Assembly (NCBI GenBank): GCA_032433765.1
Contig: JAVIAB010000049.1
Location: forward strand, 23,060,147 to 23,124,146
DNA from: Megaustenia siamemsis
Taxonomy: Eukaryota > Mollusca > Gastropoda > Stylommatophora > Ariophantidae
Length of the DNA: 64,000 bases
Direction of reading: 5' to 3'
Position numbers and translations under genes: made by a program. Positions 3,175 to 61,307 of the stretch are shown here, piece by piece (position 1 is the stretch's first letter; the number at the start of each line of letters is the position of its first letter). Below the pieces are notes generated by a model. The model ran no database searches. It saw only the letters and a program-made list of their open reading frames with translations, and was not told the DNA's origin.

Positions 3175-3441
<267 letters not shown>

Positions 3442-40514: not shown

Positions 40515-40520
40515 AACGAT
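40515..40520. repeat. 6-bp target-site duplication, left
   Basis: AACGAT, repeated exactly at 55626-55631. Six bases is the usual Polinton target duplication. Confidence 0.93.
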
Positions 40521-41110
40521 AGTAGTAGACCAGGAAGGAAACGCTCCTGGTTTTTTAGTTGACCAAAGAGTAGGGTATACCCTACGAAGTCCAGTACAAG
40601 AGTTATATAGTAGGATACCACCACTTTCCCATGGTGGAAGGTGGTGGTGGTGGTGGAGCTTCTGTCATGATATATATGTATATATGAATAGGGCTTGTAT
40701 AGTGCATGAAGGGGTGAGTCATGTATTGGACAGCAGTTTTTCCCGCCAAAGTGACTTCCAATAGGAGCTAGTGTGTGTGTGTGTTGTCCAGCTATAGACC
40801 ACGCCCACTCCGGAAGTGAAACTACCATATTAGGGAGTAGTGATACGTTAGTTATTTCATAGTTATGGTGAGTATATATACATATAATAGTAATAAGTTA
40901 ATAGTTATTATATCTACGTTGACGTAAAGGGCCCCGTATTTAAGATATGGACCATAAGTAGGTATATATATACATACATATATTGGCAAATCTTGCTGGC
41001 GGTATTAACGAACAGTCATTTTCTCCTACCGTGGCAGCTCAATATCTCCCACCGTTGCCGCTCTCGCGTGAGTTTAATGATTATTGTCTCCAGCGAGCGC
41101 GAAACGCAAC
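40521..41110. repeat. Polinton left terminal inverted repeat, 590 bp
   Basis: Complement of 55036-55625 with a single mismatch that I can find (A at 40790 versus the expected C). It contains a terminal hairpin (CCAGGA...TCCTGG, 40531-40550) and a perfect palindrome AGGGTATACCCT just inside it. Open frames crossing it are artefacts. Confidence 0.97.
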
Positions 41111-41140
41111 AGGTCATGTAAAAAAAGGCGCGTACACGGT

Positions 41141-41183
41141 TTAATATATTCATTCGACTAGCGTCGGTCGGTCAGTCAGTCAC
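41141..41183 (+). promoter_or_regulatory. candidate promoter of the polymerase transcript
   Basis: A TATA-like TTAATATATT (41141-41150) is followed 25-30 bp later by TCAGTCAGTCA, an initiator-like sequence, just inside the left terminal repeat. Inference from motif and position only. Confidence 0.35.
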
Positions 41184-41482
41184 GCGGTACCCACAGTGAT
41201 AACACTGCCAGATACGCTTCCATATCTGTAAATCTACCACCAGAGCCTAACTGATATTATCCTACCAGAGCTGTAAATCTAACAGCAGATAACCACAGGT
41301 GTTATACTGAAACACCGTCGGAGAAGCTAGGAGAACCAACCTTTAAAAACCAACAGTATAAGAATACAGGTAAGTTGAAATTTCACTTAAAATACATAAC
41401 AATGTGTGTTTATTATCATAGTTTTATTAATGGAAATGAATTACGTAACATATAGGAACGTGTTCGGTAAATCTCTTAACGG

Positions 41483-42004
41483 TCACAGAGCAAAGCTGTT
41501 ACGAAATAGAGTCCACATCGTCGTATCCTTTTCGTTAGAGAAGTCTTGGAACTTTTTCCAACCTCCGTTTTTTACAAACCAGTCTCCGAATAATCCACCG
41601 ATAAACATTCCGGCAAAGAAAGCGAAGCTCTTTTCCAGAGAAGATATATCTGTATCGGAATCGTAAAAGTCTTTGACATGGTTCTTAATTAGTCGATAAG
41701 CCAGCGTATAAATAATCACGAGGCGCCCACAGTTAAAAATTCCATCTGAAACCATATAAACCACAATGGTCGCAAACGAGGCGTAAATATCCTTATCAAC
41801 GACTCCCAAAGTTATACCAGCGAATAACGAGTCATATCTCTCTGATACCGTATAGACTAGTTTAGCCATTGACTTATAAAACGGGGAAAGCTTCTTTTTA
41901 GTCTTATCGTAAGTGTGGATAATGTCAACAGCTAATACCACAATTTCGTTCGAAATTGTAGCCACACACATTTTACAATCAGAACTAGTCATTTTCGAAT
42001 CCAT
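41483..42004 (-). CDS. Bcl-2-like apoptosis regulator encoded by the Polinton
   Basis: A 173-residue protein with an ATG start. Residues 84-103 (MVSDGIFNCGRLVIIYTLAY) fit the BH1 motif, in which an Asp-Gly and an Asn-x-Gly-Arg precede a hydrophobic helix. Residues 141-152 (DWFVKNGGWKKF) fit BH2, with the signature W-x-x-x-x-G-G-W. A BH3-like helix (LVYTVSERY, about 49-57) is weak. Length and order fit the all-helical Bcl-2 fold. The hydrophobic stretch at 127-140 would be a core helix; no C-terminal membrane anchor is evident. Family members bind BH3 helices to block or promote mitochondrial apoptosis; an anti-apoptotic role for the element is inferred. It lies next to the left terminal repeat, opposite in direction to the polymerase. 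Confidence 0.8.
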   Translation of the reverse strand: MDSKMTSSDCKMCVATISNEIVVLAVDIIHTYDKTKKKLSPFYKSMAKLVYTVSERYDSLFAGITLGVVDKDIYASFATIVVYMVSDGIFNCGRLVIIYTLAYRLIKNHVKDFYDSDTDISSLEKSFAFFAGMFIGGLFGDWFVKNGGWKKFQDFSNEKDTTMWTLFRNSFAL

Positions 42005-42382
42005 ATAAGATAAATTCAGAAGCGCGCGTGGTACGTGAAATCAATAATGTGAAACATGTCTGGACATGTTCGGGTATACATTATGCGTGAGTCACACAAA
42101 CTGAGCGATGTATTAAGTTCCATGAATCTTATAGTTCCAGTCGCGTTAGTACAAACACATATTGTAAAAGTGGTATGGTTACGATAGTGATATGAACATG
42201 ATAGGGATAGAGACTCAAATATGTCGATAAAGGCTTTAGTAAACACCTAGATACCCGCTCACCGACAAAATATAATATTTAAAACTAACTGTTAGTGGAT
42301 GCGTGGTTTAGTTAAGTAATAAGTACGTAGATGTTGATAATGTGTTTTGAGTGTAAAGATTAAAGTACTGATAAGAGAGAGC

Positions 42383-42436
<54 letters not shown>

Positions 42437-42837
42437 AAAAGAAAGAAAGGTAGAGAGAGAGAAAGAAAGAAAGAAAGAAAGATTTGAAACGGACTGATAT
42501 AGCGGTGGTAGACGCTGAGAGACATTTATAATAAACTAGCGAAAGCGGAGGAATGAGTCATACCTGGCTATAGCGTTTATGATAGTAGGAGCGACGGATG
42601 AGTTGTACGAGGATGGTGTAAGACATGATAGCTGCTGAGGTTATGTGTGCTAATGAAGTGGTCGATAACTAATAACTGTCTAGTAACATATAGTATGTGT
42701 GCGTGCGTACATGTGTGTGCGCGTGTATGTGTGTATGTGTGCGCGCGCGTGCGTGTGCGAGCGCATGTTATATATGTATACTATTTCAATGTATTTTTGG
42801 TACGCACACTAAATGAGTGGTTTTATCTCGTTGACAG
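42005..42837. other. spacer between the Bcl-2-like and polymerase genes
   Basis: Contains a (GA)n run at about 42385-42432, GAAA repeats to about 42482, and a TGTGTGCG-rich stretch at 42693-42770. A 76-codon minus-strand frame at 42016-42246 lacks an ATG and a recognisable domain. Confidence 0.6.
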
Positions 42838-45800
42838 ATGGCCTCACGTAACGAACTTGTAAGCAGACCACGCCACGTGTGTGAAACGTGTGGGAAAAGC
42901 TTCACACGTCGGGATGCTCTAGCCAGACACGTAGATAGTGCGCACGGCCAACAGAGATATCCGTGTCCTATATGCGGCTGCATCTTTACAAGATCCACAA
43001 ATCTTACAAACCATGTGGCGAAGAAACACGCAGCATGTGCAACTATCTCATCGGCACCAGCACCGGCTACATCAAGGGCCCCGACAGTATTCTCTGCAAC
43101 AGACAACAATGTTGCAGAGACCGGGGATGAAGAACACTATAGAAAGAAACCCCGAGTAGATAACACTCGTGGGGGTGACCAGCCTAGAGACAGTACAGAG
43201 CACATATCATCTGTACGCATTAATACTAAATACTCGTGTAAAGACTGCGGGAAAATATTTACTACCCAAAACCATCTAGATCGGCATGTAGACACTGTTC
43301 ACAATAAACAGACATACCAGTGTCCTATATGTGTATGCGAATTTAACAGACAGGACAATCTAAGAACACATATTAAAAACAAACACCAACTACCGATATC
43401 AACAAGTACAAGCTCAGCATCCTCGACAAGACCATCAACCACCTCCACAACAGCAGTGTCAACCACCTCCGCCACCTCATCAGCTTCGATACCGACGACC
43501 TGTTCAAAGTCCAGAGCTGATCCAACAATTAAGAGGAAGCGGAATAATGAACATTCGATAGAGAGTCAACACAGCAAGAAGGCGCGAACGGATCTAGAAT
43601 TAGACAGTTTAGCTAGTTTACCATCAGATGTTAGACAGGTCTATGTCGACAACTGGTCTGCAATAAGGTCACATAGTAATAATAATAGGCATCTGTCAAC
43701 GCACACCGTCTTCCATAATCCAAATTCACAGCTACTGCCAAACTGGGCAAACATCCTAAATCCCATATTTAATAACCAAACACGTAGATTTAAAATAAAT
43801 TATTCTCACAATTTCATCCTGAGGAATAAAGAAAACAATGACCTTCGGTTTTTCCATAGTAGTTTCAATAATAGTTTAATTCTTTCAACTCCGATGGTTA
43901 TCAATAACAGAGCAGATTTTGATAGGTTCCTCACACAACTACAAGATAGCGACCCCTTAAACCACGCAAATCATAATAGACCGAGCACTAAATATACCGT
44001 CGAAACCCTTCCCAGCACTTCGTTCTATCTCTATAATTTCGTAGAATATCCTATCGGGTGTCTAACCACCGACCTGCCACAACACATTACAAACAATAAA
44101 TTCATTTATACATTACAAAATAGCAAGCATGGACCACCCTATACTGATAATCTCTGTTTCTTTAGATGCGTAGCGTTATTTAGGGGTGGTAATCTCGGTA
44201 ATTTACACAGACCCACCAGCGATCTCCTGAAACAGTGGCAAGCCCATCAGGGGTTAGATATAGACGACAAGTTCCCGGGTGTAACGCTAGCGCAGATTCC
44301 CTCTCTAGAAAAGTGTTTCGGTATTAACGTGGACGTCTTCGCTTTTGACAAAGACCAAGCCCTGTCCCCAATGCTAAGAGGTAGTACGACTTTTAGCGAC
44401 ACCTTACGAGTTCTATTTTACGAAGAACATTTTATGTATATAGCGGACATAGATAAGGCGGCCCGGGCTTTTTCCTGTCCTAAATGTGGAAAATTGTGGA
44501 AAGAATGTTGGCGTATGGATAAACACGAGAAGACATGTACCGGAGATAAGCGAAAAGACAAGTATATCGGAGGAGTTTATAGGAACAAAGAGGGTATACT
44601 CGAAACGATAGCTAATAGGGGTATAGAAGTTCCTAATAATTACGTGTATCCCTACAGAGCGACGTACGATTACGAATGTTACTTTAGTAATGTACCGACG
44701 ACAGATGGAAACATTAGTAATGTCACCGAATATGTAGCCAGGCATATTCCAATGTCTTGTGCCGTAGCCAGTAATATTCCTGGTTATGAGAAACCGGTAT
44801 GTTTTGTGAGCGAAGGTGATTCTCAAAAATTAGTGAGTAAAATGATAGATTATCTAGAGACATTAGCGAAACGGGCGTATATAATCTTACGCGGCAGTTT
44901 CAAACAGGTTTTTGACAGTTTAAGAGACAGGGGTGACTGTAGCGACCTCATAGGGAAACTCGAATCATACTTGAAAGAGCTCCCCGTTATAGGATTCAAC
45001 TCTGGAAAGTATGACTTAAACGTTATCAAACCATATTTAATAAGACATTTCGTAGCTGCGGCGAACAAAGTAGAAAAATCGAACGAAGAAGATGATGAAG
45101 AGGAAAAAGATGAAGAAGATGACGTTGATGAAGAATTGAAAAATGATGACGATGAAGAAGATGATGACGATGAAGAAGAAGATGACGATGAAGAAGAAGA
45201 TGACGATGAAGAAGAAGATGACGATGAAGAAGAAGAGCCGAAACAAAACAAAACTAAAAAAGGGGTGACCTCGCCCTTCAAGTTTATCGTTAAGCGCAAT
45301 AATAATTTTATGTGCATCTCCACCAGTCGACTAAAGTTCTTAGATATTATAAATTATCTCGCCCCGGGGTTCTCTTATAGTAAATACTTGGCGGCGTACA
45401 AGATTAAAGAGACCAAAGGTGTATTTTGTTACGAGTATATTACCGACCTAATAAAGTTAGACGAAACCTCTCTCCCCCCTCACGAGGCCTTCTTTTCGAC
45501 GCTTAAAAACTGTAATATTTCAAACGAAGAGTACGAGTATTGTAACAAGATATGGGCGGACAATAACATGTCCACTCTCAGAGATCTTCTTGTTTGGTAT
45601 AACAACAAGGATGTCGGGCCCTTCCTACTAGCATTAGAGAAACAGATCGAATTTTACGCGGGTTTAGGTGTAGATATGTTTAAGGACGCCATTTCAGTCC
45701 CGGGTGTGACGTTAAGATACCTCTTCAACACCATACCTAAAAACGTAGTCTTTTCTTTATGCGGTAAACGCGAGGCAGAGCTTCATAAAACACTTAGAGA

Positions 45801-47313
45801 TAATATAGTGGGTGGCCCGAGCATAATCTTTCATCGCCACCACGAGAAGGACGAGACTCGAATCAGAGGTAATCCTGAAAACGTAGTAGAGAGTCTTAAA
45901 GGCTACGACGCAAACGCTCTGTATCTCTGGGCGTTGATGCAGAAAATGCCCACTGACTTTCCAATTATACGAAAAGTTGAGGACGGGTTTAGACAACGTA
46001 AAGTTAATTATTACGATCAGCAGAGTAGAGAGTGGTTAACGTGGGTAGCTCACAAACACAACATTGAGTTGCGAACTCAATACAACGGGGGTGAGGTACC
46101 TTTAGGACCTCGTAGGATTAGAGTGGATGGCTTCTGTCAAAAGAGTAACCTATCCGCTAATAATAAAGTCTGGCAGTATCATGGTTGTCTGACGCACGGC
46201 CATATCTGTCACCTCACTGAAAAACACAAAGGTGTTAACCCTATAAACAAAAAACCCTTGTCCGAGCTATACGACAAGACCCGGGAAATTCGCGAATATT
46301 TAACCAACGACGTTGGAGTTGACGTGGTTGAGATGTGGGAATGTGAGTGGCAAGAGCTAAAGAAAACCGATAGCACAATTATTCCGTTTCTTAAACAAGC
46401 CCTCCCCAGAGCAAAACCATCGTATGCCCGGGAAAAATTACCACTAACCGTCGCGCAGATCTTGAAGGCTGTTAAAGACGAAACGCTGTTTGGTTTGGTA
46501 GAATGCGATATTCATGTCCCCGATTCTCTCAAGGAATATTTTAGCGAAATGACACCCATATTTAAAAACGTAGACGTGTGTAGAGACGATATAGGAGAGC
46601 TTATGAAGGAATACGCCGTGAAAAATAAATTATTGACGACCCCTAGACGTACCCTGATAGGTAGTTATATCGGGAAGAAAATTCTTTTGGCCACCCCCTT
46701 ATTAAAATGGTATTTGGATCACGGTCTAGAGGTAACCAACATCTACCAGGTGATCGAATACCACCCTGTTAGTTGTTTCAAACAATTTGGGGACACCGTA
46801 TCCGACGCCAGACGAAAAGGGGATGTAGATGAGACGCAGTCCATTACGGGGGAGACCATGAAGTTGTTAGGGAATTCGGCGTATGGAAAAACTCTCACCG
46901 ATAAGGCGAAACACTCGAACGTCGCGTACTGCGAGGGTGAGTCCGCTTCCAAGCTCGTTAACGACCCCCTATTTAAACATATGACAGATTTAGGAGTAGG
47001 GAATATATTCGAGGTGGAAATGTTAAAAAAGACGACGAGGTGGGACCTTCCGCTACAAATCGGCTACTTTGTATATCAATACGCCAAGCTACGGATGTTG
47101 CAATTTTATTACGATTTTTTAGACCGGTTCGTAGAGAGATCATACTTTCAGTTGTGTGAAATGGACACTGACAGTCTGTATTTGGCGTTAAGTAAACCTA
47201 GTTTAGCTGCCGCCGTTAGACCGCCTTTACTCGAAACTTTTTATAACGAGTACGATCAGTGGTTCCCCTCAGAGACCTGTAGCGTTCATCGGGAGGAGTT
47301 TGTTAGGAGTTAA
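42838..47313 (+). CDS. polB: Polinton protein-primed DNA polymerase B, stopped before its C-terminus
   Basis: Replicates the linear element from a protein primer. It has 1,491 codons. The N-terminus has two pairs of C2H2 fingers (C15-H36, C43-H64, C134-H155, C162-H183). An OTU-like cysteine-protease region (DNLCFFRC, Cys440; EEHFMYI, His531) is followed by a CCHC-type finger at 547-568. Exonuclease motifs: ExoI YDYECYF (Asp611, Glu613), ExoII FNSGKYDLN (Asn721, Asp726), ExoIII YNNKD (Asp925). Polymerase motifs: A, GYDANALYLW (Asp1024); B, KLLGNSAYGK (Lys1342-Gly1350); C, CEMDTDSLYL (Asp1443, Asp1445). An acidic Asp/Glu block at 750-801 is inserted between ExoII and ExoIII. A TAA at 47311 ends the frame, while homologous sequence continues in the same frame to 47682. 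The ATG directly follows a possible splice acceptor. Confidence 0.95.
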   Translation: MASRNELVSRPRHVCETCGKSFTRRDALARHVDSAHGQQRYPCPICGCIFTRSTNLTNHVAKKHAACATISSAPAPATSRAPTVFSATDNNVAETGDEEHYRKKPRVDNTRGGDQPRDSTEHISSVRINTKYSCKDCGKIFTTQNHLDRHVDTVHNKQTYQCPICVCEFNRQDNLRTHIKNKHQLPISTSTSSASSTRPSTTSTTAVSTTSATSSASIPTTCSKSRADPTIKRKRNNEHSIESQHSKKARTDLELDSLASLPSDVRQVYVDNWSAIRSHSNNNRHLSTHTVFHNPNSQLLPNWANILNPIFNNQTRRFKINYSHNFILRNKENNDLRFFHSSFNNSLILSTPMVINNRADFDRFLTQLQDSDPLNHANHNRPSTKYTVETLPSTSFYLYNFVEYPIGCLTTDLPQHITNNKFIYTLQNSKHGPPYTDNLCFFRCVALFRGGNLGNLHRPTSDLLKQWQAHQGLDIDDKFPGVTLAQIPSLEKCFGINVDVFAFDKDQALSPMLRGSTTFSDTLRVLFYEEHFMYIADIDKAARAFSCPKCGKLWKECWRMDKHEKTCTGDKRKDKYIGGVYRNKEGILETIANRGIEVPNNYVYPYRATYDYECYFSNVPTTDGNISNVTEYVARHIPMSCAVASNIPGYEKPVCFVSEGDSQKLVSKMIDYLETLAKRAYIILRGSFKQVFDSLRDRGDCSDLIGKLESYLKELPVIGFNSGKYDLNVIKPYLIRHFVAAANKVEKSNEEDDEEEKDEEDDVDEELKNDDDEEDDDDEEEDDDEEEDDDEEEDDDEEEEPKQNKTKKGVTSPFKFIVKRNNNFMCISTSRLKFLDIINYLAPGFSYSKYLAAYKIKETKGVFCYEYITDLIKLDETSLPPHEAFFSTLKNCNISNEEYEYCNKIWADNNMSTLRDLLVWYNNKDVGPFLLALEKQIEFYAGLGVDMFKDAISVPGVTLRYLFNTIPKNVVFSLCGKREAELHKTLRDNIVGGPSIIFHRHHEKDETRIRGNPENVVESLKGYDANALYLWALMQKMPTDFPIIRKVEDGFRQRKVNYYDQQSREWLTWVAHKHNIELRTQYNGGEVPLGPRRIRVDGFCQKSNLSANNKVWQYHGCLTHGHICHLTEKHKGVNPINKKPLSELYDKTREIREYLTNDVGVDVVEMWECEWQELKKTDSTIIPFLKQALPRAKPSYAREKLPLTVAQILKAVKDETLFGLVECDIHVPDSLKEYFSEMTPIFKNVDVCRDDIGELMKEYAVKNKLLTTPRRTLIGSYIGKKILLATPLLKWYLDHGLEVTNIYQVIEYHPVSCFKQFGDTVSDARRKGDVDETQSITGETMKLLGNSAYGKTLTDKAKHSNVAYCEGESASKLVNDPLFKHMTDLGVGNIFEVEMLKKTTRWDLPLQIGYFVYQYAKLRMLQFYYDFLDRFVERSYFQLCEMDTDSLYLALSKPSLAAAVRPPLLETFYNEYDQWFPSETCSVHREEFVRS

Positions 47314-47682
47314 GGTAAATTTAAGGTAGATTGTCGAGACTGCGAAAAAACAAAATTGTACCATAAACGTACCCCAGGTTTATTTAAGTTAGAGTACGAA
47401 GGGGATGGGATAGTATCGTTATGTAGTAAAACATACCACTGTTTTGGAGATTACTCAAAAACTAGTACTAAGGGGCTTAGCAAACATCACAATAAACTAG
47501 ACAAAGATATATTTATGAAGGTTCTCAAGACACAACAGGCGCAGGGAGGGAAAAATGTGGGTTTTAAACGATATAAATCGAGTGTCTATACATATACACA
47601 GCACAGAAATTCTCTCTCTTATTTCTACATCAAACGCCGTGTGCACAACGACAATGTGACGACTTTTCCGTTAGGTATCTAG
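47314..47682 (+). pseudogene. polB: polymerase B C-terminal part, beyond the in-frame stop
   Basis: 122 codons in the same frame as the polymerase, ending at a second stop (47680-47682). KRTPGLFKLEYEGD and LCSKTYHCFGD are family-typical for the end of the Polinton polymerase, in the thumb region. There is no early ATG, so this part would be made only by read-through. It is either a nonsense mutation in a young copy or a base error in the sequence. Confidence 0.85.
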
Positions 47683-48102
47683 AGTATTTATATATATATA
47701 TATATATTATGTATATACAATGATACTTCTGTGATAGTTTTATGTCCAGTGATAATGAACATATGTTTGTGTCGTTGTCACGTTTATATTGTATTAAAAT
47801 ATATCATTAAAAAAAGTATGCAGTTTTTTTCTATTGTATATACATGTCACGTGGTACTGTCTCGTAAGAATAATATGGATACTCTCAGTATCCTTGGTGT
47901 ACTACCAGTATACCTGTGTGTAAAACAGAAAAAACGAGTTACAACATCTATGACTTTCACACCTATACAATCCATTATATACGTACACATAAATGACAAA
48001 TAACACGAGGCATGTTTTGTAATTTATATATATTTTATTGATACAGCACAACACCGATACTGCGTATGCAGTACATCTAGACACGACATAAAAACACAAC
48101 AT
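47683..48102. other. intergenic space between convergent polymerase and PC4-like genes
   Basis: Starts with a (TA)n run (about 47690-47708) and is A/T-rich. Short frames here show no domain. Confidence 0.6.
48034..48039 (-). terminator. polyadenylation signal for the PC4-like gene
   Basis: AATAAA on the minus strand, 64 bp past the stop codon at 48103. Confidence 0.6.
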
Positions 48103-48858
48103 CTAAATGTTCAGCCTCAGTCTCTTTCTTCTTCTAAGATGACCCGGGGCAATCGTTGTTATTGGTTGAATCTTTTCAACGTTGTCAGTATCGTACACGG
48201 GAGTCCTGTAAGAACCATTATTTATCGAATGAGGTTCGTTGCATGCCGATGTAGATACTGGAAGTCTATGATCTGCCGTGGTCGACGGCGCGTTCGAGGG
48301 AAGAGGCTGTAGTGTTGTTGCATTAGCCTCGAGACGAGCACACTCGGCCAATAACTCGTCCTGCATAGCCACGAGCTGTTCGTTTCTACTAAGATGACCC
48401 GGAGATAGTGCTGGTACTGGGTGACTACTTTCGAAGTTGCCAGTATCGTAGAAAGGAGCCATGTAAAAGCCACTATTTATGGAATATGGCTCGATACTCG
48501 GCGACGTGGATACTGGAAGTGTGTGATCTAGTCTGATGTCGGGTTCGTTCACTGTATGAGTCTCGAGTGTTGTTGCAATGGCTTCGAGACGCTCATACTC
48601 GGCCAATAACTCGTCCTGCATAGACACGAGGTGTTCAAATTCTGAACGATTCAACGTGATCCCATACTTGGTGGGATATTTTAAATTCGATGTCCCGAAA
48701 AATTTTCGAATATGGATCATAGTCGACCCTCTGTATGAAGACACAGACGCTACTTTCAGCCCTGTAGCCAATGGTTTGACCATTTCACGATCTGCTGTAA
48801 CGTAGACCCAGCTAGTGGGTACATCGACAACTGGTGCAGCCTCGACGTTTGTCAGCAT
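48103..48858 (-). CDS. PC4-like single-stranded-DNA-binding protein with duplicated C-terminal tail
   Basis: 251 residues, ATG start. Residues about 33-82 fit the PC4/p15 transcriptional-coactivator fold: a beta-strand region (SVSSYRGSTMIHIRKFF) is followed by YPTKYGITLNRSEFEHL, matching the family's K/T-x-x-G-I-x-L-x-x-x-x-[FW] pattern before the dimer helix. PC4 domains bind single-stranded or melted DNA, so a role in replication or late transcription is plausible. The helix and what follows are duplicated: residues about 78-159 (LVSMQDELLAEYERLEA...) and 162-243 (LVAMQDELLAECARLEA...) align over 82 positions. It ends in a basic, NLS-like RRRKRLRL. This gene is not part of the core Polinton set. 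A TATA box lies upstream and a polyadenylation signal downstream. Confidence 0.78.
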   Translation of the reverse strand: MLTNVEAAPVVDVPTSWVYVTADREMVKPLATGLKVASVSSYRGSTMIHIRKFFGTSNLKYPTKYGITLNRSEFEHLVSMQDELLAEYERLEAIATTLETHTVNEPDIRLDHTLPVSTSPSIEPYSINSGFYMAPFYDTGNFESSHPVPALSPGHLSRNEQLVAMQDELLAECARLEANATTLQPLPSNAPSTTADHRLPVSTSACNEPHSINNGSYRTPVYDTDNVEKIQPITTIAPGHLRRRKRLRLNI

Positions 48859-48910
48859 CTTCTGTATCTCAGCACTGAGCGATGTGTGACTGGCGCTTTC
48901 TCACCCGCGA

Positions 48911-48918
48911 CTTTTATA
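48911..48918 (-). promoter_or_regulatory. TATA box of the PC4-like gene
   Basis: TATAAAAG on the minus strand, 53 bp upstream of the ATG at 48858; transcription would start near 48885. Confidence 0.6.
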
Positions 48919-49010
48919 GCATAGGTCAGATTATAGATCCGGTTTAGTCCGGATTTTTAAACACTAAAATTCGTGTCCAGACTTGTCTGCGATATTTTAA
49001 GCCACTGACG

Positions 49011-49505
49011 TCATTGCACTAGAAATTTTAAATTTTGCGCCATAAGCTTCGGTGCTAGTATTCGATACACGATTCGATCGTTTATGTGTTGTCTGGTGGA
49101 TGAGGTAAACGGCATTAAGACCCTTTGCATTGATCCTCCTCGTGTTTTAATCAGTAGAAAATACACAGAGTACAGTCCACACGCGTTACTAACAAGATCT
49201 TGTAACTGACGCGAGTTGTAGATGAGAGGTCTGTTCGAATTCCTCTCGATAAAATCGATGATCTCGGTATGTCTGGGAGAAAACCCGAAACTGTCGAAAT
49301 ACTCAAACTGCCCCATAGCGTTGTAGTAGAGGGCGACCCAGTGAGAGCCAGGTAGATAGCTGGGATCTGTATTGATAACGAAGACTGCTGTTTTAGTTGG
49401 ATCGATATAGCGAGGTAACCGATTGCGAGCCACTACGCTAACAATGGAACACCGTCTCACAAAAATGTCAGACATGAGTACTTTGAGAATATCTTTCGTA
49501 TTCAT
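49011..49505 (-). CDS. adenovirus-type cysteine protease (maturation protease)
   Basis: 164 residues, ATG start. A cysteine protease of the adenain/C5 and related Ulp1 fold, which cleaves capsid precursors during virion maturation in relatives. The catalytic set is complete: His55 in LPGSHWVALYY, Asp71 in FEYFDSFGF, Gln102 and Cys109 in QLQDLVSNACGLYSVYF. Length is close to the usual 160-200 residues and no break is visible. It is the last of the tightly packed leftward block and follows the major capsid gene by 11 bp, as often seen in Polintons. Confidence 0.95.
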   Translation of the reverse strand: MNTKDILKVLMSDIFVRRCSIVSVVARNRLPRYIDPTKTAVFVINTDPSYLPGSHWVALYYNAMGQFEYFDSFGFSPRHTEIIDFIERNSNRPLIYNSRQLQDLVSNACGLYSVYFLLIKTRGGSMQRVLMPFTSSTRQHINDRIVYRILAPKLMAQNLKFLVQ

Positions 49506-49516
49506 TGTCGAAGTGT

Positions 49517-50225
49517 TTACGCTGTGTAATCTGTAAGAATCTGTCTCGTTTTAGAGATCTCCAGCACGGAATCCAGTTCTGCGTAAACTAGGACCTGTAT
49601 AGGATTAGGCGTGATCGTCGCAAATTTGAGCTCGATGGCGACGGGCCCTGATTTTGCCAGCTCAAATTGTTCGGTGTTCAAAAGACTTGGGCTGAGATCG
49701 AATGCAAAAAGAGTGTAGGCGTTCTTGAAGTCGTTATAATCTATTCCGTTACCAGCGTCTGTTCCCACAAGACCCAACGCCAGCATGGACTTGAAGTAGG
49801 CGCGAGCGTACTGACCGCGGTCAAATTCGGTAGATAGAGGTTTACCCCAAATACTATGACCGGCGACGGTGATGTTTAAGTAGGTAAGGCCAAAGTTTTT
49901 AAAATTGAAGGGGTTGGTGTCGTAACTTCCATTAAATGCAGCCGAGTCCAGTAAGCCGAGGACTAGTCGCGTTGGTGTTTGAGTCAGAAAAAGATTGTCT
50001 TGGGAATGAGATAACATGCCTTTAGGAATGGCAAATGTTTTAATCATAACTCTCTTCATGGGGTATCGCGCATTGCCTCGTAAGAGAGCCTTTTCGTGAG
50101 CCAGCGAAATGGCTGGATTAACTGAGGCTTTCCTCACCAACAGGGCGGCGTAGGTGATGACACTTTTATAACCGACAGTTTTGTCGTGAGCTATGATGTT
50201 AAATACGTCCTTTGAGGGGTCAACT
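49517..50225 (-). pseudogene. major capsid protein, C-terminal part (after frameshift)
   Basis: Continues the major capsid protein in another frame. The frame is open from about 50225 to the stop at 49517 and has no ATG near its start, so it is not a separate gene. Blocks such as KRVMIKTFAIPKGM, FNFKNFGLTYLNITVAGHSI and FDLSPSLLNTEQFELAKSG, then a strand pattern ending VLVYAELDSVLEI, fit the second jelly-roll of Polinton capsid proteins. The shift from the upstream frame falls between 50191 and 50225, where a run of four G (50216-50219, + strand) is the likely site. Confidence 0.88.
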
Positions 50226-50826
50226 TAATTTTCACGTCAACCCTGTTTAGCATGTAACGCTCCTGAGCAAAAATATCAGAGTGAAGTCGCCCTATCATAT
50301 CCAGCTCATGGCTACCTCGGGCCAGATTTCGACGAGTTTTAAGACCCGCATTGGAGTCACCTTGGGTGTCATCCGCGTGTTTGGGAGTATCGGTGTAGTA
50401 GAGCGCGCTCGTGAGATAACTTTTCTTAGATTCCTTGCTATGGTTGAGAGTGGCTTCTAGGTATGCTCGAAAAGGGTAGGTGTTTTCAGAAGCTGAAATC
50501 AAAGTATCGTTGAGAGATACGTCGACTTGTGAGATTAGACTGTGCAGAAAATAGTTCACAGGCGCAACTTCAACATCATTTGGTATATTTTCACCGTTGG
50601 ACAGCGTGATTTTTGCTCTCATATGCAGATACGTGTTGGAAAAATCGATGTATTCGTCCGAATTTCCGCTGATGGAAAACTCTATAGGGGCCCCAGATGC
50701 CAGAGACGCCAAGGGGGAAACTTCTACAAACTGGGCAGAATCAAGAGATGTCTGAGTCGGTGGAACGCTAAACAAATCTAGTCCAGAATGGAAACACTCG
50801 CAAGACTTGGGATGCACTAACGCCAT
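50191..50826 (-). CDS. major capsid protein, N-terminal part (frameshifted)
   Basis: 211 residues from an ATG to a stop created by a frameshift. It corresponds to the first half of the double jelly-roll major capsid protein that builds the icosahedral shell in Polintons, adenovirus and virophage-like relatives. Family-typical blocks: the N-terminus CFHSGLDLFSVPPTQTS, IDFSNTYLHMRAKI and SQVDVSLNDTLIS, with MLNRVDVKIKL just before the break. The remaining protein follows in another frame (to 49517), giving a total near the usual 420-450 residues. With this indel no full capsid protein could be made. Preceded by the pX-like gene (6-bp spacing). Confidence 0.92.
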   Translation of the reverse strand: MALVHPKSCECFHSGLDLFSVPPTQTSLDSAQFVEVSPLASLASGAPIEFSISGNSDEYIDFSNTYLHMRAKITLSNGENIPNDVEVAPVNYFLHSLISQVDVSLNDTLISASENTYPFRAYLEATLNHSKESKKSYLTSALYYTDTPKHADDTQGDSNAGLKTRRNLARGSHELDMIGRLHSDIFAQERYMLNRVDVKIKLTPQRTYLTS

Positions 50827-50831
50827 ATCGC

Positions 50832-51317
50832 TTAACCGAATATGTCCGAATAGTTTGTCCTCTTAGACTTCTTGGACGCGGAATGAGAGTGATCGCGTCG
50901 TTTCGTCGTTTTTATTCTTCTTGCCGGCATCCCAGGTGGAGCTGCTCGTCTTTTCCTTCTTCTACCGCTTCCGGTTTGTTGGCCTGTATCGCCACCGGCC
51001 AGATGACTGATGGCTCCCTGAATTAAACGCTGACCGGATTCCTTAGCTCTTTCTTTAAACGACTCTCCAATATTTCTTCCCGCCAATGCGTCTTGCGCGA
51101 CTTGTAGTCCCGTACCGACACCTTCTCTGAGTAATGCCTTACCTCCTGTTTTTAGCCACGGTAAAATTGCTCTTCCGATGCCTCCGAAAAAACTTCCGAT
51201 ACCGCGACCTCGCTGACTTCTACCTCCGACAAATACCGGGAGGCCGTGGCCGGCTTGATTAAAGCAACACTCTTCGTATAACTTAGCATTTCGATGAAGC
51301 GGCGTGTGTCTCACCAT
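50832..51317 (-). CDS. pX-like minor virion/core protein
   Basis: 161 residues, ATG start. N-terminal Cys pair followed by QAGHGLPVFVGGRSQRG and a Gly-rich amphipathic stretch (GIGSFFGGIGRAILPWLK), then an Ala/Gly helix and a very basic Arg/Lys tail (GRRRKRRA, then RRIKTTKRRD). This layout recurs at this position in Polintons and adintoviruses, where it is compared with adenovirus core or membrane-active minor proteins. A role in DNA condensation or membrane interaction is inferred. Starts one base into the end of the penton frame. Confidence 0.8.
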   Translation of the reverse strand: MVRHTPLHRNAKLYEECCFNQAGHGLPVFVGGRSQRGRGIGSFFGGIGRAILPWLKTGGKALLREGVGTGLQVAQDALAGRNIGESFKERAKESGQRLIQGAISHLAGGDTGQQTGSGRRRKRRAAPPGMPARRIKTTKRRDHSHSASKKSKRTNYSDIFG

Positions 51318-51610
51318 TATACCAGATCGAAGTGCTTCCGCGCTCTGAAATGTAACGTCAGTACCGACGTTCCGGATGTAAATGGGATCGCAACTCCCCT
51401 GTCGTTAGTTAAAAGAATTTCTAACCTGTCGAAGGAGAACCTGCTCAGGGGGACATAGTGCGGTTTGTCGTAGATGCAAAATATGGATGTGGTGGTTTTC
51501 TCCAAAACAGGAACTGCCCTCAGTAAGGGTACCAGAACATCCCCCACCACTCTAGGTGACACTAGATCGCAATAGACGTACACGTTTCTGGTTTGCGTTT
51601 CCAAATTTAT
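51317..51610 (-). pseudogene. penton-type minor capsid protein, C-terminal part beyond an in-frame stop
   Basis: In the same frame as the upstream part and separated from it only by the stop at 51611. There is no ATG. VYVYCDLVSPRVVGDVLVPL, PHYVPLSRFSFDRLEI and TSVLTLHFR are the family's conserved second half, normally fused to the N-terminal part. It would be expressed only by read-through. Confidence 0.87.
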
Positions 51611-52072
51611 TTATTTCTCGCCGTGCAGGGCCACGTTAGCGTCTGTCACGCGATTCGATGGGAGGCTTAAGATACTTTTCAATTCCTCGCTTATGGTAAC
51701 CGAGTGTCCTTGGTCAAAGAGTTTAAGTATGGCCTTATTTTCGTTTTTTTTATTAAAAAATCTCATTTTGATGGGTGGTGATTTTTCCAAAATCACTTTA
51801 TTTAAAGCATCGATAAAGTTATCCGCTGTCTTGTATAACCCCGGCGCCAGTTCCATTGTTACTGCTGTGTTACTAGAGGTTTCGTAACGGAGCCAGATAT
51901 CGCCGGGTAGGACGTTGAAATGAGTGTTTGGAAATTGTATCTCGGCCAAACCGACTTCGTAGTTTGCGTTCAGTTCGATAGTTTGAGGGAGTTTGACGAA
52001 AAAGTTTCCAGGACTATTTTCAGGATAAATTTGCATCGAAGCGTTGCTGGGGGCTGTGATGTAAAAACTCAT
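51611..52072 (-). CDS. penton-type minor capsid protein, N-terminal part
   Basis: 153 residues, ATG start. MSFYITAPSNAS, then YPENSPGNFFVKLPQTIEL and YEVGLAEIQFPNTHFNV are the typical opening of the single jelly-roll Polinton minor capsid (penton) protein that occupies the five-fold vertices. It ends at a TAA after HGEK, in the middle of the usual ~250-residue protein. The missing half follows in frame (51317-51610). Upstream neighbour is a small membrane protein (10 bp). Confidence 0.88.
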   Translation of the reverse strand: MSFYITAPSNASMQIYPENSPGNFFVKLPQTIELNANYEVGLAEIQFPNTHFNVLPGDIWLRYETSSNTAVTMELAPGLYKTADNFIDALNKVILEKSPPIKMRFFNKKNENKAILKLFDQGHSVTISEELKSILSLPSNRVTDANVALHGEK

Positions 52073-52082
52073 CTTCCTTGAT

Positions 52083-52388
52083 TCACCGTCTCGTCTCTAA
52101 CTTGGGGTTTGGAAGCATGTAACCCAGACAACTGCTCAGGAGCGCGATCCAAATCTTTCCGTCCTGACCCTCACCGTTTCCACCCGTCAGATTAAATAAA
52201 GCCACGCCGATTACGGCATATATAACGATCATTTGACAGAGAAAAACGATTTCCATTCGCGGGAGCAGTTTACCGAAAACAGGCCAGAGTGAGGTTCTGC
52301 TATCGTGACTGGTCCCTTCGTCGTTCTTCGTTTCTTCTCGTTCAACTACCGTACTCAGAAAAGTTTGCACGTGTTCATCCCCCTCCAT
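52083..52388 (-). CDS. small membrane protein of Polintons
   Basis: 101 residues, ATG start. An acidic N-terminus precedes a hydrophobic segment (about 47-69, IVFLCQMIVIYAVIGVALF) and a short second one (IALLSSCLGYMLPNP). A single-pass protein ending SSxLGYxLPNPK is a common small gene beside the integrase in Polintons; function unknown. Four bases separate it from the integrase stop. Confidence 0.75.
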   Translation of the reverse strand: MEGDEHVQTFLSTVVEREETKNDEGTSHDSRTSLWPVFGKLLPRMEIVFLCQMIVIYAVIGVALFNLTGGNGEGQDGKIWIALLSSCLGYMLPNPKLETRR

Positions 52389-52392
52389 TTCG

Positions 52393-53481
52393 TTAGTCTC
52401 TGTATCTCGATACTTGATCGCTCAAAATCCAAGTGTTAAATGCCGATGTGTAACCGTACCATTTGACTAAGTACTGTTTTGTTCCACCAACTTTCCTCTC
52501 TTCTAAGATGGCTTCTATTCGATACACCCGTTTTTCGCCGACTTTCTGAAGCTCTTCTGTATAAAACGACCCTTTCAACTCTTCACCAGAATCATCTTTC
52601 ACAACGTAGGTTACCGGGTTAGTGATTTTGTTTACACGACTGATTGTAAACAGTTCTTCCGTCCACGCTGGTGTATACCCCTTTTTGAAATTAGCTCTGG
52701 CTTGAGCTATCCTAACTCGATCACCTTCTTTATAACGGTTATTGATCGCTACTGACTGTCTATTGTCTCTCCCCGATAGTTTATTATACAACGTGTTCCA
52801 GACTTGTTCTTGATTGGCCGAATTTACGTGGACCGGCGCCATTTTAATGCTCCTGTGATACGAATTATTGTAGTTTCTGAGTAAGGCGGATAACGCATCC
52901 ACATATCTCAATTTGTTCGTTTTCGTAAAAAATTTCCACATTTTCTCTTTTAACGTTCGGTTAAATCGTTCTACGATCGCTGCCTTTATATCCTCGTTCT
53001 CCGTAGTGAAGAAATGGACTCCATTTTCCTTGAGAAACTTTAGGAAAGTTTTGTTGACGAATTCGGATCCTTTGTCCGTTTGAAGATGTATCGGTTTGCG
53101 CTCGGCAAATATTTCGCTCACGGCCTCCACTAGATTTTTTGCGGTTTTCGACCGTATCGGAACTGCCCAAGCATACTTCGCAAAAACGTCGATACACGTA
53201 ACGAGATACGAGAACGCGTCGTTGTATCTTCTTAATTGTCTCAGATCGATCAGATCAGCCTGGAACTGCTGGTTCATACCACCCACGATGATGGGTCGTC
53301 TCTTAAATTTTCTAATAATGGGTTTGTGTAGAGTATAAGCATCCTGTAGACTCAGCCATTCTTTAATCTTTGCAGAGCTTAGTTTTGTACTACGCTGTAA
53401 ACCACCCACACCCCCGTAGGCACCCGGTCGATTCGGATCGTAGTAACGGCTTCTTAAAATCTTATCTACTCGTTTGGCCAT
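52393..53481 (-). CDS. retrovirus-type integrase with chromodomain
   Basis: 362 residues, ATG start. Catalyses insertion of the element; the 6-bp target duplication is the expected footprint. The RNase H-fold core has the D,D,E triad: Asp76 (QADLIDL), Asp136 (LQTDKGSEF), Glu171 (AIVERFNRTL), with 34 residues between the last two. Conserved FAKYAWAVPI and YNNSYHRSIKMAP frame the core. A basic beta-rich region follows, and a C-terminal chromodomain (about 318-356, YRIEAILEER then YLVKWYGYTSAFNTWI) suggests chromatin targeting. No break is visible. The start overlaps the preceding gene's end by 16 bp. Confidence 0.96.
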   Translation of the reverse strand: MAKRVDKILRSRYYDPNRPGAYGGVGGLQRSTKLSSAKIKEWLSLQDAYTLHKPIIRKFKRRPIIVGGMNQQFQADLIDLRQLRRYNDAFSYLVTCIDVFAKYAWAVPIRSKTAKNLVEAVSEIFAERKPIHLQTDKGSEFVNKTFLKFLKENGVHFFTTENEDIKAAIVERFNRTLKEKMWKFFTKTNKLRYVDALSALLRNYNNSYHRSIKMAPVHVNSANQEQVWNTLYNKLSGRDNRQSVAINNRYKEGDRVRIAQARANFKKGYTPAWTEELFTISRVNKITNPVTYVVKDDSGEELKGSFYTEELQKVGEKRVYRIEAILEERKVGGTKQYLVKWYGYTSAFNTWILSDQVSRYRD

Positions 53482-53927
53482 GACTCCCAGTTTGGTTTTG
53501 GAATTTTACTTTTTCTTCTTTTCCTGAGCCTGTACTTGCCCACAACTTCTTTGTGAGTGACCGCTTTCGTTTTCGGCCTAGGCGCGCTTGGCGCTGACTG
53601 AGGAATTTTTTCGTCGACTTCATCTTTAAGTACCGCAGTTGGTGGTGTTGTAATCGCGTCGGGGGATGGGGGTGCCTGTTTAATGTCCACTACGCCTAGA
53701 GGTTTGTGTCTGTACTGATCGAGACGTTGCAGATACCGTTGCAATGTCTGCTGATACAGTCTGGCTTTGTCGCGTGGTGACATGTCCTCTCTTTCCAGGA
53801 CTCGTTGCATTTGCGTATCCAGATCTCCTAGGGTGTCTTTTAGTGACTCGGGTGGCGTATACGCGCTTTGGTGGTGATTTACAGACTCTACCAGTCGAGG
53901 ATCTATCAAAATCATTTTCTTGGCCAT
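53466..53927 (-). CDS. conserved Polinton protein of unknown function (ILIDPR family)
   Basis: 153 residues, ATG start. The N-terminus AKKMILIDPRLVE and a central helical part (DLDTQMQRVLEREDMSPRDK, then YQQTLQRYLQRLDQYR) recur in Polintons, upstream of or near the integrase. The tail is Pro-rich and then strongly basic (GKYRLRKRRKSKIPKP). A structural or DNA-binding role is possible, but none is known to me. Confidence 0.75.
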   Translation of the reverse strand: MAKKMILIDPRLVESVNHHQSAYTPPESLKDTLGDLDTQMQRVLEREDMSPRDKARLYQQTLQRYLQRLDQYRHKPLGVVDIKQAPPSPDAITTPPTAVLKDEVDEKIPQSAPSAPRPKTKAVTHKEVVGKYRLRKRRKSKIPKPNWESWPNE

Positions 53928-53930
53928 CGT

Positions 53931-54254
53931 TCACATGCCCAGAATACCGCTCAGGATACCCAGAACTGGTTTAATCAGAGCGCCGATAAAACCACCCTTT
54001 TGTAGAATCTGTTTTCTCTTTTTCACGGTCGTCTTTTTTCGTGCGAGAATCCTCAGGTCGTGTTTATGGCGCTGTAACCGTCTCTTCTGAGCCGGCGTGA
54101 GCCGAACGTTACCTTTTAACACGTTGTGGCAACATTCGCACAGAGTTCTTATGAGATCAGGCGACGCTGTTTTCATCGCGGCCTTTACAGCTGGTGGTTT
54201 AGCCGAGCACAGAAAACGCAACATCTCTCCGTGTCTTTTGACAGATTCGCCCAT
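53931..54254 (-). CDS. small basic conserved Polinton protein
   Basis: 107 residues, ATG start. Two Cys in LCECCHNVLKGNVRL, a very basic middle (LTPAQKRRLQRHKHDLRILA, KKRKQ) and a hydrophobic Gly-rich end (GGFIGALIKPVLGILSGILG). The LTPAQKRRLxRHK and GGFxGALxKP pattern is shared by small Polinton proteins, perhaps virion-associated. Function unknown. Confidence 0.75.
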   Translation of the reverse strand: MGESVKRHGEMLRFLCSAKPPAVKAAMKTASPDLIRTLCECCHNVLKGNVRLTPAQKRRLQRHKHDLRILARKKTTVKKRKQILQKGGFIGALIKPVLGILSGILGM

Positions 54255-54259
54255 GTTCC

Positions 54260-54874
54260 TTATTTTGGGATGTAGACTACCTGCTGTTCTTTAGGAAAAA
54301 TATTTGTGCGCAGCCTTAGATGATCCGGTGTCTCTTGCCGAAGGTCAATTAATAAATACCCGTGTGGAGCCGATGTCGCGTCTTTAAAACTTTCTTGCAC
54401 GTACGACACGCGCCCCGGGTACATTTGTTTGGCCAGATTCGTAATCTGAGACCCGTCTCTCGGGTTTTTAAACATAACTATGTAATGACTGTTGAGACTT
54501 ATCGTCCGCTGTTCCTTGTTTTTGCTAAAGAGATTCTGTACTATATACACGACGCTTATATTTCTATGATGACTTCCCTTGGTAAATAGTTTCGTGACCC
54601 TATCGTCGGTTTCGTTCATCAGATCGTCTATGACCAACAGACGTGTCCTATCTCCTCGCCATTGCTCCATGTCGGGTAGCCCTTCGTTAAACTGAACACC
54701 CTTCATCGTATCGTACATCGATTGCCACTCGCCGTAACAGTAGATTATTTCCTCCGGAGCGGGTCTGATCATTTCTGACACGTGATCGATAAAGCGCCTA
54801 ACAAACACACTTTTTCCGCATCCCGTCGGTCCTGCGACTAGCGCCGTAAACGGATGATTCCAGGTTGGATCCAT
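54260..54874 (-). CDS. genome-packaging ATPase (FtsK/HerA type)
   Basis: 204 residues, ATG start. Pumps the element's DNA into capsids in virus-like relatives. Walker A GPTGCGKS (residues 15-22) follows the family's FTALVA strand. Walker B is RLLVIDDLM (Asp83-Asp84), and VVYIVQNLFSKNK carries the sensor/Gln region. The usual length is about 200-250, so the gene looks intact. First gene of the leftward block. Confidence 0.95.
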   Translation of the reverse strand: MDPTWNHPFTALVAGPTGCGKSVFVRRFIDHVSEMIRPAPEEIIYCYGEWQSMYDTMKGVQFNEGLPDMEQWRGDRTRLLVIDDLMNETDDRVTKLFTKGSHHRNISVVYIVQNLFSKNKEQRTISLNSHYIVMFKNPRDGSQITNLAKQMYPGRVSYVQESFKDATSAPHGYLLIDLRQETPDHLRLRTNIFPKEQQVVYIPK

Positions 54875-54908
54875 ACCTACGACTGTCGCGAGGTAGATTT
54901 ATGTCGTT

Positions 54909-54916
54909 ATTTTATA
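54909..54916 (-). promoter_or_regulatory. candidate TATA box for the leftward gene block
   Basis: TATAAAAT on the minus strand, 35 bp upstream of the ATPase ATG. Confidence 0.45.
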
Positions 54917-55035
54917 ACTTACGAACCTTATTTGATAACACTATACGCGTATCGAGACCATAAGTATTGTTATTAACCTATGTCTTATTGTCTGCTAACC
55001 GCGTACCGAGACAGCTCGCTCATTAGTTTACACTT

Positions 55036-55625
55036 GTTGCGTTTCGCGCTCGCTGGAGACAATAATCATTAAACTCACGCGAGAGCGGCAACGGTGGGAG
55101 ATATTGAGCTGCCACGGTAGGAGAAAATGACTGTTCGTTAATACCGCCAGCAAGATTTGCCAATATATGTATGTATATATATACCTACTTATGGTCCATA
55201 TCTTAAATACGGGGCCCTTTACGTCAACGTAGATATAATAACTATTAACTTATTACTATTATATGTATATATACTCACCATAACTATGAAATAACTAACG
55301 TATCACTACTCCCTAATATGGTAGTTTCACTTCCGGAGTGGGCGTGGTCTATAGCGGGACAACACACACACACACTAGCTCCTATTGGAAGTCACTTTGG
55401 CGGGAAAAACTGCTGTCCAATACATGACTCACCCCTTCATGCACTATACAAGCCCTATTCATATATACATATATATCATGACAGAAGCTCCACCACCACC
55501 ACCACCTTCCACCATGGGAAAGTGGTGGTATCCTACTATATAACTCTTGTACTGGACTTCGTAGGGTATACCCTACTCTTTGGTCAACTAAAAAACCAGG
55601 AGCGTTTCCTTCCTGGTCTACTACT
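55036..55625. repeat. Polinton right terminal inverted repeat, 590 bp
   Basis: Complement of 40521-41110 with one mismatch (G at 55356). Confidence 0.97.
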
Positions 55626-55631
55626 AACGAT
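55626..55631. repeat. 6-bp target-site duplication, right
   Basis: AACGAT, identical to 40515-40520; it continues into LINE B (GAAGTTTTAAAATAGC). Confidence 0.93.
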
Positions 55632-56219: not shown

Positions 56220-56599
56220 CAGAACAAAACAAATGAAATTTTTGGGGCATGTTAAAAGACACACCAGCCTACTAAAAGTAATATTAGAAGGAAAAATACA
56301 AGGTAAAAGAGGCAGACGAAGACTAACATGGACGAGAAACATAAAAAGATGGACAAGTCAACCTATGACAATCTGCACCATCAAAGCAAGAGACAGAGCA
56401 GAATGGCGCTCCATAGTAGCCAACCTTCGATGCGGAGACGGCACTCAATGATGATGATGATGATGATGTCCAAACGTCGGTAGCTCAGTAGGGTGGTTTT
56501 CCCAACTAGGCTAACGAGGCCACCTGAAGGAAGAAACGAAAGAGAGAAAGGTAATTGTGGTGTTGAGGTCCATGACTTTTGGTTCACTTTCTGTGACAT

Positions 56600-56747
56600 T
56601 TTCATCTTATATAATTTGAAGATCTTGTAAGTTTTCTGCTATCAACAAAACGTCATTTATATACCTGAGTTGTTCAGGTCGCTTTCCGCGCTGTGATGAT
56701 ATATTTGGTTTGCAATTGTTTTTGAAATATTTTACCTGTAAAAAAAA
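56600..56747 (-). mobile_element. LINE reverse-transcriptase scrap
   Basis: The minus strand reads KRPEQLRYINDVLLIAENLQ, the palm motif with Asn in place of the first catalytic Asp. Confidence 0.75.
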
Positions 56748-56807
56748 AGGTAAAGTACCCCCGTCACGCCAAGTGGCGTATAGGGAATATGGTGTTTCAT
56801 CATCAAT

Positions 56808-57600
56808 ATGGTGTTTCATCATTTTGGTGAATCTGGGAGAAGATTAGCGGAAAGGTTTTGTGAACATCTACGTGATGTCCAACAAAATACTGGTACTCCG
56901 GTATCTTCCCACTTCAACTCCCCTGATCACAAGGGTAAAGACGACATCCGTGTCACTGGTATTGTCCTTTGTCACTCTGGCGACCGCAGCCGCTATACTT
57001 TGGAAAATCGCCTTATAGTCCAGTATGGTTCGCTGACCCCGAGAGGTATGAATGTATCACACTCATACGCATAGTTTCTTTTTGCTTGCTCCTTCCCCTT
57101 TGCATAGTCTTCTCTACTACACATATTTGGGTTCTTTGGTCTACTTACTATGCCATGCTTTTTATAGTTCTTCTCCTCTAGTCCCTTATGAGACACTTCG
57201 GTTTTCTCCTCTATAATTTTTTTTCTGTGCTTCTTACCCCTCATTTATTTTTACTGTACCCCACTCTCAGACATCTCACTCTTAGCGTCTTTTTACACCT
57301 GTCAGTCTACTATTCGATTCTTTCTCCTTTGTGTTTGCACACTGACCCCTGTGTTAACTCCTCTGGTTCTGTTTACATTTACGCACTTTTTGGCACGATT
57401 TTCGACGTTCACGACAGCCGCACTTGGTTACGATTTTATTTTGGATTTGACAGGATAGTTTTATTTTTGTTGTTGTTTTCTTTAACACATTTCGATTGTT
57501 TTTGTTTTGGTTGTTTCGTTATCAGTTTTGTGTGTGTGTTTTTATTGTTTGTTCCTGATGAAGGCCTATTGAGCCGAAACGTTGTTTAGTCTGTGTCGTC
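56808..57600 (+). mobile_element. Penelope-like element 3' end with GIY-YIG endonuclease remnant
   Basis: The translation at 56808-57074 reads GESGRRLAERFCEHLRDVQQ, VSSHFNSPDHKGKDD and RLIVQYGSLTPRGMN, the C-terminal part of the GIY-YIG domain of Penelope-like retroelements. Downstream, CCTGATGAAGGCCTATTGAG then CCGAAACGTTGT (57556-57588) is the 3' motif often found with these elements. The reverse transcriptase is absent. Confidence 0.75.
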
Positions 57601-57656
57601 CACTTGTCACGTAAAGCTTCTTACATACCATTTTTTATTTTTTTATTTTCCCTTTG

Positions 57657-59760: not shown

Positions 59761-59764
59761 ATGA

Positions 59765-61269: not shown

Positions 61270-61306
<37 letters not shown>
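60748..61306 (+). mobile_element. LINE family B 3' part
   Basis: Blocks in three frames: FNAMKNIVTIKQIT, then RNSPLKVILEEKIQGKRG and EWRSMVANHSCGDC, then an (ATG)n tail at 61271-61306. Confidence 0.85.

Positions 61307-61307
<1 letters not shown>

Follow-up and report, generated by a model that had tools for sequence, protein, structure and literature searches.

A multi-copy, probably pro-survival Bcl-2-family gene of a Polinton lineage in the gastropod Megaustenia siamemsis

We analyse a stretch of 64,000 nucleotides from the gastropod Megaustenia siamemsis (assembly GCA_032433765.1, contig JAVIAB010000049.1, positions 23,060,147 to 23,124,146; hereafter the window) and, within it, a small gene that lies just inside the left end of a Polinton, an element of 15,105 bp at 40521-55625 bounded by terminal inverted repeats (TIRs) and 6-bp target-site duplications (TSDs). 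The gene belongs to the Bcl-2 family, and the genome holds many copies of it in the same position of related elements. The finding is larger than first described in that the gene is, judging from sequence comparison, a multi-copy, constrained and probably pro-survival Bcl-2 gene of the Polinton. Our preferred reading, to which we give a probability of about 0.78, is that a Polinton (adintovirus-like) lineage carries it as an accessory gene and that its product is a pro-survival member of the Bcl-2 family.

Results

A Bcl-2-family gene at the left end of a Polinton

The frame at 41483-42004 on the minus strand is intact, running from an ATG to a TGA. An initial annotation of this DNA had reported a 173-residue protein with BH1-like and BH2-like motifs in the right order and had placed its gene next to the left terminus of a Polinton, and both observations hold: BH1 (SDGIFNCGRLVIIY, residues 86-99) precedes BH2 (DWFVKNGGWKKF, residues 141-152), the signatures N-x-GR (BH1) and W-x3-NGGW (BH2) are present, and a gap of about 370 bp separates the end of the left terminal repeat (41114) from the end of the frame (41483). 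The 173-residue protein matches the Pfam Bcl-2 profile PF00452 with an E-value of 2.8e-8, its 34.7 bits exceeding the cut-off of 31.4, in an alignment that pairs residues 47-149 with profile positions 2-100 of 100. In a phmmer search of the PDB its top match is BFL-1/A1 (E 2.3e-6), and the best 60 of 171 matches are all BFL-1/A1, Mcl-1 or BCL2L10; a profile of eight sequences from the same genome returns BFL-1 at 1.3e-14, followed by Bcl-xL, BCL2L10 and Mcl-1 (best 60 of 206). The annotation had named profile matches to another family as one result that would tell against it; the Pfam and PDB searches favour Bcl-2, and their scores rule out a chance match to short motifs. By these scores, membership of the encoded protein in the Bcl-2 family is confirmed.

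Within BH1 and BH2, residues N91, R94, V96, I98, G140, N146 and W149 are invariant across 75 copies of the gene. None of the 46 candidates from a protein-database search with the window protein reached E 0.001, and none of the 1322 from a search with an alignment (A1) reached E 0.01; in viral contigs five pattern matches to the window protein were found and none was confirmed. PF00452 matched none of 14 control genomes, which is a weak control.

The gene occurs in many copies and shows signs of selection

Searching the window's own genome (2.59 Gb) with the window Bcl-2 gene gives at least 150 scored matches (the best 150 of 1614 candidates) to what we call family A. There is no internal stop in 142 of the 150, and five, the window copy included, are 100% identical. 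We examined 81 of these matches, 61 together with about 1.5 kb on either side and 20 as the gene only. In every one of the 61 flanked copies the Bcl-2 gene lies between the terminal repeat and the polymerase gene, and the neighbouring intergenic stretches, the inner TIR and the start of the polymerase are matched as well (some partially); the outer terminal repeat is matched in 60. Because the outer flanks differ among four of the five identical copies (L001, L002, L003 and L005), these must be separate insertions. The survey located copies through their Bcl-2 gene and so does not see elements that lack it.

Quantitative comparison of the copies gives signs of constraint on the encoded protein. 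Uninterrupted frames make up 75 of the 81; of the six dropped, three contain in-frame stops (one or two each), two are frameshifted and one is a short match. Over 62 distinct sequences, the median ratio of nonsynonymous to synonymous substitution rates (dN/dS) is 1.50 at dS up to 0.02 (64 pairs, with only one or two synonymous changes per pair) and 0.74, 0.49, 0.50, 0.47, 0.40 and 0.39 in the next bins up to dS 0.5 (the last with 4 pairs); 18 of the 1891 pairs have no synonymous change and fall in no bin. Variants common to several copies have a dN/dS of 0.51, and singletons 0.84. Mean divergence from the window copy is 3.0% in the frame against 4.6% and 4.0% in the two flanking noncoding pieces, and the frame is less diverged than these flanks in 52 and 45, respectively, of 54 copies (excluded from the 61 are the five identical copies and another two whose flank matches are short). 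Stop-free frames number 76 of 81, where about 41 of 81 would be expected under random substitution at the distances seen. The overall pattern is what one would expect if lineages are constrained while they replicate and their copies decay neutrally once inserted, with a bias from taking the best-scoring places.

Other Bcl-2 lineages, two of them with a cyclin gene downstream

Further searches of the same genome were made with PF00452 (best 150 of 1061 candidates) and with the protein of a second family, B (best 150 of 1237), and the genome proves to hold four or more additional Bcl-2 lineages, each in several copies. The survey of related Polintons that the initial annotation had proposed turns up Bcl-2 genes in other families, and in families B and C a cyclin gene follows. 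A representative of each of families B, C, E and F/G exceeds the Pfam Bcl-2 cut-off. Family B has nine full-length copies at 98-100% identity among those best 150. In its representative, L102, the Bcl-2 gene (Pfam 1.2e-14) is flanked on one side by a divergent polymerase gene that has 55% identity to that of the window and on the other by the cyclin gene, about 1.5 kb away; downstream of the cyclin come an ATPase and two small proteins, which share 79-92% identity with their window counterparts. This cyclin is found at ten full-length places at 99-100% identity, L102 included, and among PDB entries it is closest to cyclin E1 (1.4e-19), with viral cyclins far weaker (about 3e-5). The family C representative, L103, has a polymerase, a Bcl-2 gene (2.9e-12) and then a cyclin with a broken frame; in other copies the family C cyclin is open, and it is about 44% identical to the L102 cyclin lineage.

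The association recurs across the genome. A cyclin search, in which all 78 first-look candidates were scored, gave 63 matches, and a match lies at most 8 kb downstream of the Bcl-2 gene in 25 of 32 family B or C places. These 32 places were taken from the best 150 of 1237 matches to the family B protein, leaving out three duplicate pieces, one F/G row, two E rows, the unclassed C8:44005741 and rows at 32% identity or less; 40 of the 63 cyclin rows were used, pieces of the same places being dropped. Some cyclin places with open frames (C151:9494819 and C51:100635799) have no Bcl-2 row nearby among those 150. A direct check of three further family B copies and one of family C found a polymerase piece in all four and a cyclin piece in two. 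No cyclin was found in the window element, the best match having an E-value of 0.67 over 26 residues.

The remaining lineages differ in their surroundings. In family D a Bcl-2 gene sits beside the remains of a polymerase (L104). The family E representative (L105:3847-4467, minus strand, Bcl-2 1.6e-10) has a reverse transcriptase nearby, and apart from Bcl-2 nothing within 4 kb of it matches a window protein; it is thus at most a possible Polinton gene. F/G proteins (L101 and L114) are 55-57% identical to the window protein, and further F/G rows, assigned by identity and frame length only, have open frames of 179-202 amino acids, some with stops. Many F/G rows lie near another such row: counting paired rows among the best 150 of 1237, we find 28 pairs in convergent orientation and one in direct orientation, with a median gap of 3868 bases (range 316-5570). 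No convincing Polinton gene was seen in 3.0 kb read at L114 and at L115 (G000:C47:56751100-56754100), where the best matches to window genes other than Bcl-2 have E-values of 0.019 over 20 residues and 0.040 over 35, respectively; Pfam scans of three F/G frames gave nothing above cut-off besides Bcl-2.

Taken jointly, these lineages raise the tentative idea, which we hold at somewhat less than even odds, that an animal Polinton lineage evolved a herpesvirus-like host-control module, with a v-Bcl-2 beside a v-cyclin, and that one Bcl-2 branch has gone on to spread in a short repeat whose main recognisable content is two convergent copies of it.

Origin of the gene and permuted gene order

The mobile Bcl-2 genes are related to one another. 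Eight aligned sequences (three of family A and one each of B, C, D, E and F/G) have N91, R94, S116, D117, W142, G147 and G148 in common. In host-like exons a GT follows directly after the BH2 GGW or GRW in 5 of 5 cases (L082, L083, L088, L089 and L096; L084 and L097 stop short of this position), and no splice donor follows BH2 in any of five mobile lineages (A, B and C after GGW; D and E, which are without this Trp, after GG). The residues held in common and the missing host intron point to a single old capture of an animal Bcl-2 gene and subsequent divergence inside the elements. The host Bcl-2 phylogeny suggested by the initial annotation comes out in the same direction with little force: a tree of 18 rows, from which L084 and L097 were omitted as too short, separates the mobile rows (14) from the host rows (4), weakly supported at 68/85 and in 67% of 200 bootstrap trees, and carries a long-branch warning. 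The tree agrees with one old capture and is too weak as proof.

Gene order differs between the families by a circular permutation. From its left end the window element runs terminal repeat, Bcl-2, polymerase, the remaining genes, ATPase and terminal repeat; the order is polymerase, Bcl-2, cyclin and ATPase in L102, and polymerase, Bcl-2 and cyclin in L103, so that family B has its cyclin where family A has its two ends. We considered whether the family B arrangement arose where two elements joined head to tail at their terminal repeats, and rejected this for want of a supporting repeat in the L102 gap. Between Bcl-2 and cyclin in L102 no inverted repeat reaches 40 bp, and the window's terminal regions match nothing in L102-L105 or L114 at E 0.01.

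The carrier element

We identify the element as a Polinton because of its terminal repeats, the 6-bp duplication AACGAT, an integrase with rve and chromodomain, a C5 protease and an IVa2/A32-type ATPase (Table 1).

Table 1. Features of the window element and the family B cyclin gene (coordinates in the window unless a locus is given)
Feature	Coordinates	Strand	Evidence or remark
Bcl-2 homologue, 173 aa	41483..42004	-	BH1 residues 86-99, BH2 141-152; Pfam PF00452, PDB phmmer
Left TSD, AACGAT	40515..40520	.	same 6 bp at 55626-55631
Left TIR, begins AGTAGTAG	40521..41114	+	match to right end
Right TIR, begins AGTAGTAG	55032..55625	-	match to left end
Right TSD, AACGAT	55626..55631	.	same 6 bp on left
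PolB-like protein, N-terminal C2H2 fingers, 1491 aa	42838..47313	+	DNA_pol_B_2 below cut-off
PC4-like protein	48103..48858	-	PF02229 E 2.7e-9
Adenovirus-type C5 protease	49011..49505	-	PF00770 E 5.3e-8
Candidate split major capsid gene, two frames (50191-50826, 49517-50140)	49517..50826	-	presumed resemblance
Retrovirus-like integrase, C-terminal chromodomain	52393..53481	-	rve E 3.5e-13, Chromo E 2.6e-8
Packaging ATPase, adenovirus IVa2 / poxvirus A32 type	54260..54874	-	PF02456 E 8.6e-6
Cyclin gene between Bcl-2 and ATPase	L102:6030-6713	+	Cyclin_N 1.1e-23

The polymerase assignment is the less secure part of this gene set. A piece of the protein matches DNA_pol_B_2 weakly (E 3.6e-4; 20.0 bits, below the cut-off of 25.8), the full-length protein has no Pfam polymerase match at E 0.1, and PHROGs and the PDB return no polymerase; we take motifs visible in it to be those of protein-primed polymerases. 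Adintoviridae are marked by a PolB with an OTU-like N-terminal domain and by a hexon that BLAST can recognise; in the window PolB-like protein Pfam finds C2H2 fingers and no OTU domain. Its frame is interrupted, and a further frame of 108 amino acids follows at 47356-47682. Two frames we presume to be parts of the major capsid protein, a double jelly-roll protein in Polintons, have no Pfam or PHROG match, and the one tried against the PDB (50191-50826) gave no convincing match. The terminal repeats match over 598 bp (40517-41114 against the right end) with 3 mismatches. The window copy is young by its ends yet probably defective, the latter because the polymerase frame is interrupted and the presumed capsid frame is split (50140-50191).

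To the right of the element, 56221-62328 contains several inverted repeats and a frame (57668-58486) that, on visual inspection, looks like the L105 reverse transcriptase; these are probably nested retroelement copies.

Discussion

How might such a gene serve its carrier? In the pro-survival reading, an expressed element would supply a protein that folds as a Bcl-2 helical bundle; the BH1/BH2 groove, with its conserved Arg94, would capture BH3 helices from the death proteins of the host and so keep an infected or germline cell alive long enough for the element to replicate and spread, possibly as virions. Several observations weigh against this reading. The Trp of BH1 in aligned BFL-1 is replaced in all 75 copies (C 58, F 15, Y 1, V 1). 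The window protein has no C-terminal hydrophobic membrane tail (maximum hydropathy -0.55); the family B protein has one (2.51), and such an anchor is common, not universal, in pro-survival viral Bcl-2 proteins. In the structural check proposed in the initial annotation the first four Foldseek rows are BFL-1/A1, but none of the matches reaches E<=0.001, and the single-sequence model behind them is unusable (predicted local distance difference test score, pLDDT, 41). A dN/dS of about 0.4 indicates moderate constraint only, and copies were picked by their Bcl-2 gene, as the best 150 of 1614, which favours intact frames. Finally, the window copy looks defective in genes other than Bcl-2.

The loss of the BH1 Trp also counts in favour of the alternative that the protein is pro-death or regulatory, killing or sensitising cells (for instance for particle release) or acting as a BH3-independent regulator of membranes or calcium; Bcl-2 bundles serve both directions. 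We think this unlikely: the PDB matches among the best 60 of 171 and 60 of 206 are pro-survival proteins or BCL2L10, an LxxxGD BH3 motif was looked for in the window protein and not found, and viral Bcl-2 proteins whose function has been tested are mostly pro-survival. The many open frames, in the window family and in others, might instead mean that some copies have been domesticated and are now cell-survival genes of the host, but the closest pairs, with few changes each, have a dN/dS of about 1.5, implying on average no constraint after insertion, and domestication appears highly improbable. Least credible of all is that the window insertion alone captured a host Bcl-2 gene of no use to the element. 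Polintons can take up host sequence, but the copy survey rules out a one-off event: there are at least 150 copies, 61 of 61 in the same place, with the frame less diverged than the flanking noncoding DNA, and related Bcl-2 genes occur in other Polinton families.

Of the interpretation offered in the initial annotation, then, a Bcl-2 homologue as Polinton accessory gene stands; that the element behaves, or recently behaved, as a virus facing host apoptosis is only suggested, and the window copy looks defective. A plausible cell-survival gene, with signs of constraint through replication and accompanied by a cyclin in sister families, suggests that these elements meet host death and cell-cycle control in a virus-like way, and so touches the question of whether animal Polintons live as viruses. 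It also makes the mobile Bcl-2 genes a natural series of diverging homologues.

Comparison with known systems

Bcl-2 homologues are known from herpes-, pox-, irido- and asfarviruses, where they are intronless accessory genes. The window gene is likewise an intronless accessory gene of a DNA element, but its carrier is a 15-kb integrating Polinton, and no viral Bcl-2 appears among the best 60 of 171 and 60 of 206 PDB matches, which are the cellular BFL-1, Bcl-xL, Mcl-1 and BCL2L10. Gammaherpesviruses carry a v-cyclin together with a v-Bcl-2. Just as in these viruses, a cell-cycle driver and a predicted death blocker are combined in the Polintons of families B and C; unlike theirs, the cyclin in the Polintons has cyclin E1 as its best solved relative, and the element genome that carries it is small.

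The nearest relatives are Polintons/Mavericks and adintoviruses, which the window element resembles in its chromodomain integrase, C5 protease, IVa2/A32 ATPase and terminal repeats. Starrett, who defined adintoviruses in 2021, reportedly mentions anti-apoptotic genes. Distinctive of the present case are the at least 150 endogenous copies in one 2.59-Gb genome and the several distinct Bcl-2 lineages, with a cyclin downstream of Bcl-2 in two. A preprint (Buck 2024, PMC11071296) describes anti-apoptotic homologues in related adintoviruses, with no word beginning with 'bcl' or 'cyclin' in its main text, and defines Adintoviridae by an integrase with a C-terminal chromodomain, as the window integrase has. 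The term 'bcl' does not occur in the available parts of papers on vertebrate Mavericks (PMC8097293) and Drosophila adintoviruses (PMC8363768) or in PMC10812802, and a partial literature search found no titles on Polinton Bcl-2, which is no proof of novelty. Polinton/Maverick particles were unobserved as of 2021 according to the abstract of PMC8097293. A different mobile setting is provided by the planarian Burro giant retrotransposons, described as having a BCL2-like motif (PMC6431247): there the motif lies inside the polyprotein of a long terminal repeat retrotransposon, whereas in the window Bcl-2 is a separate gene of a DNA element.
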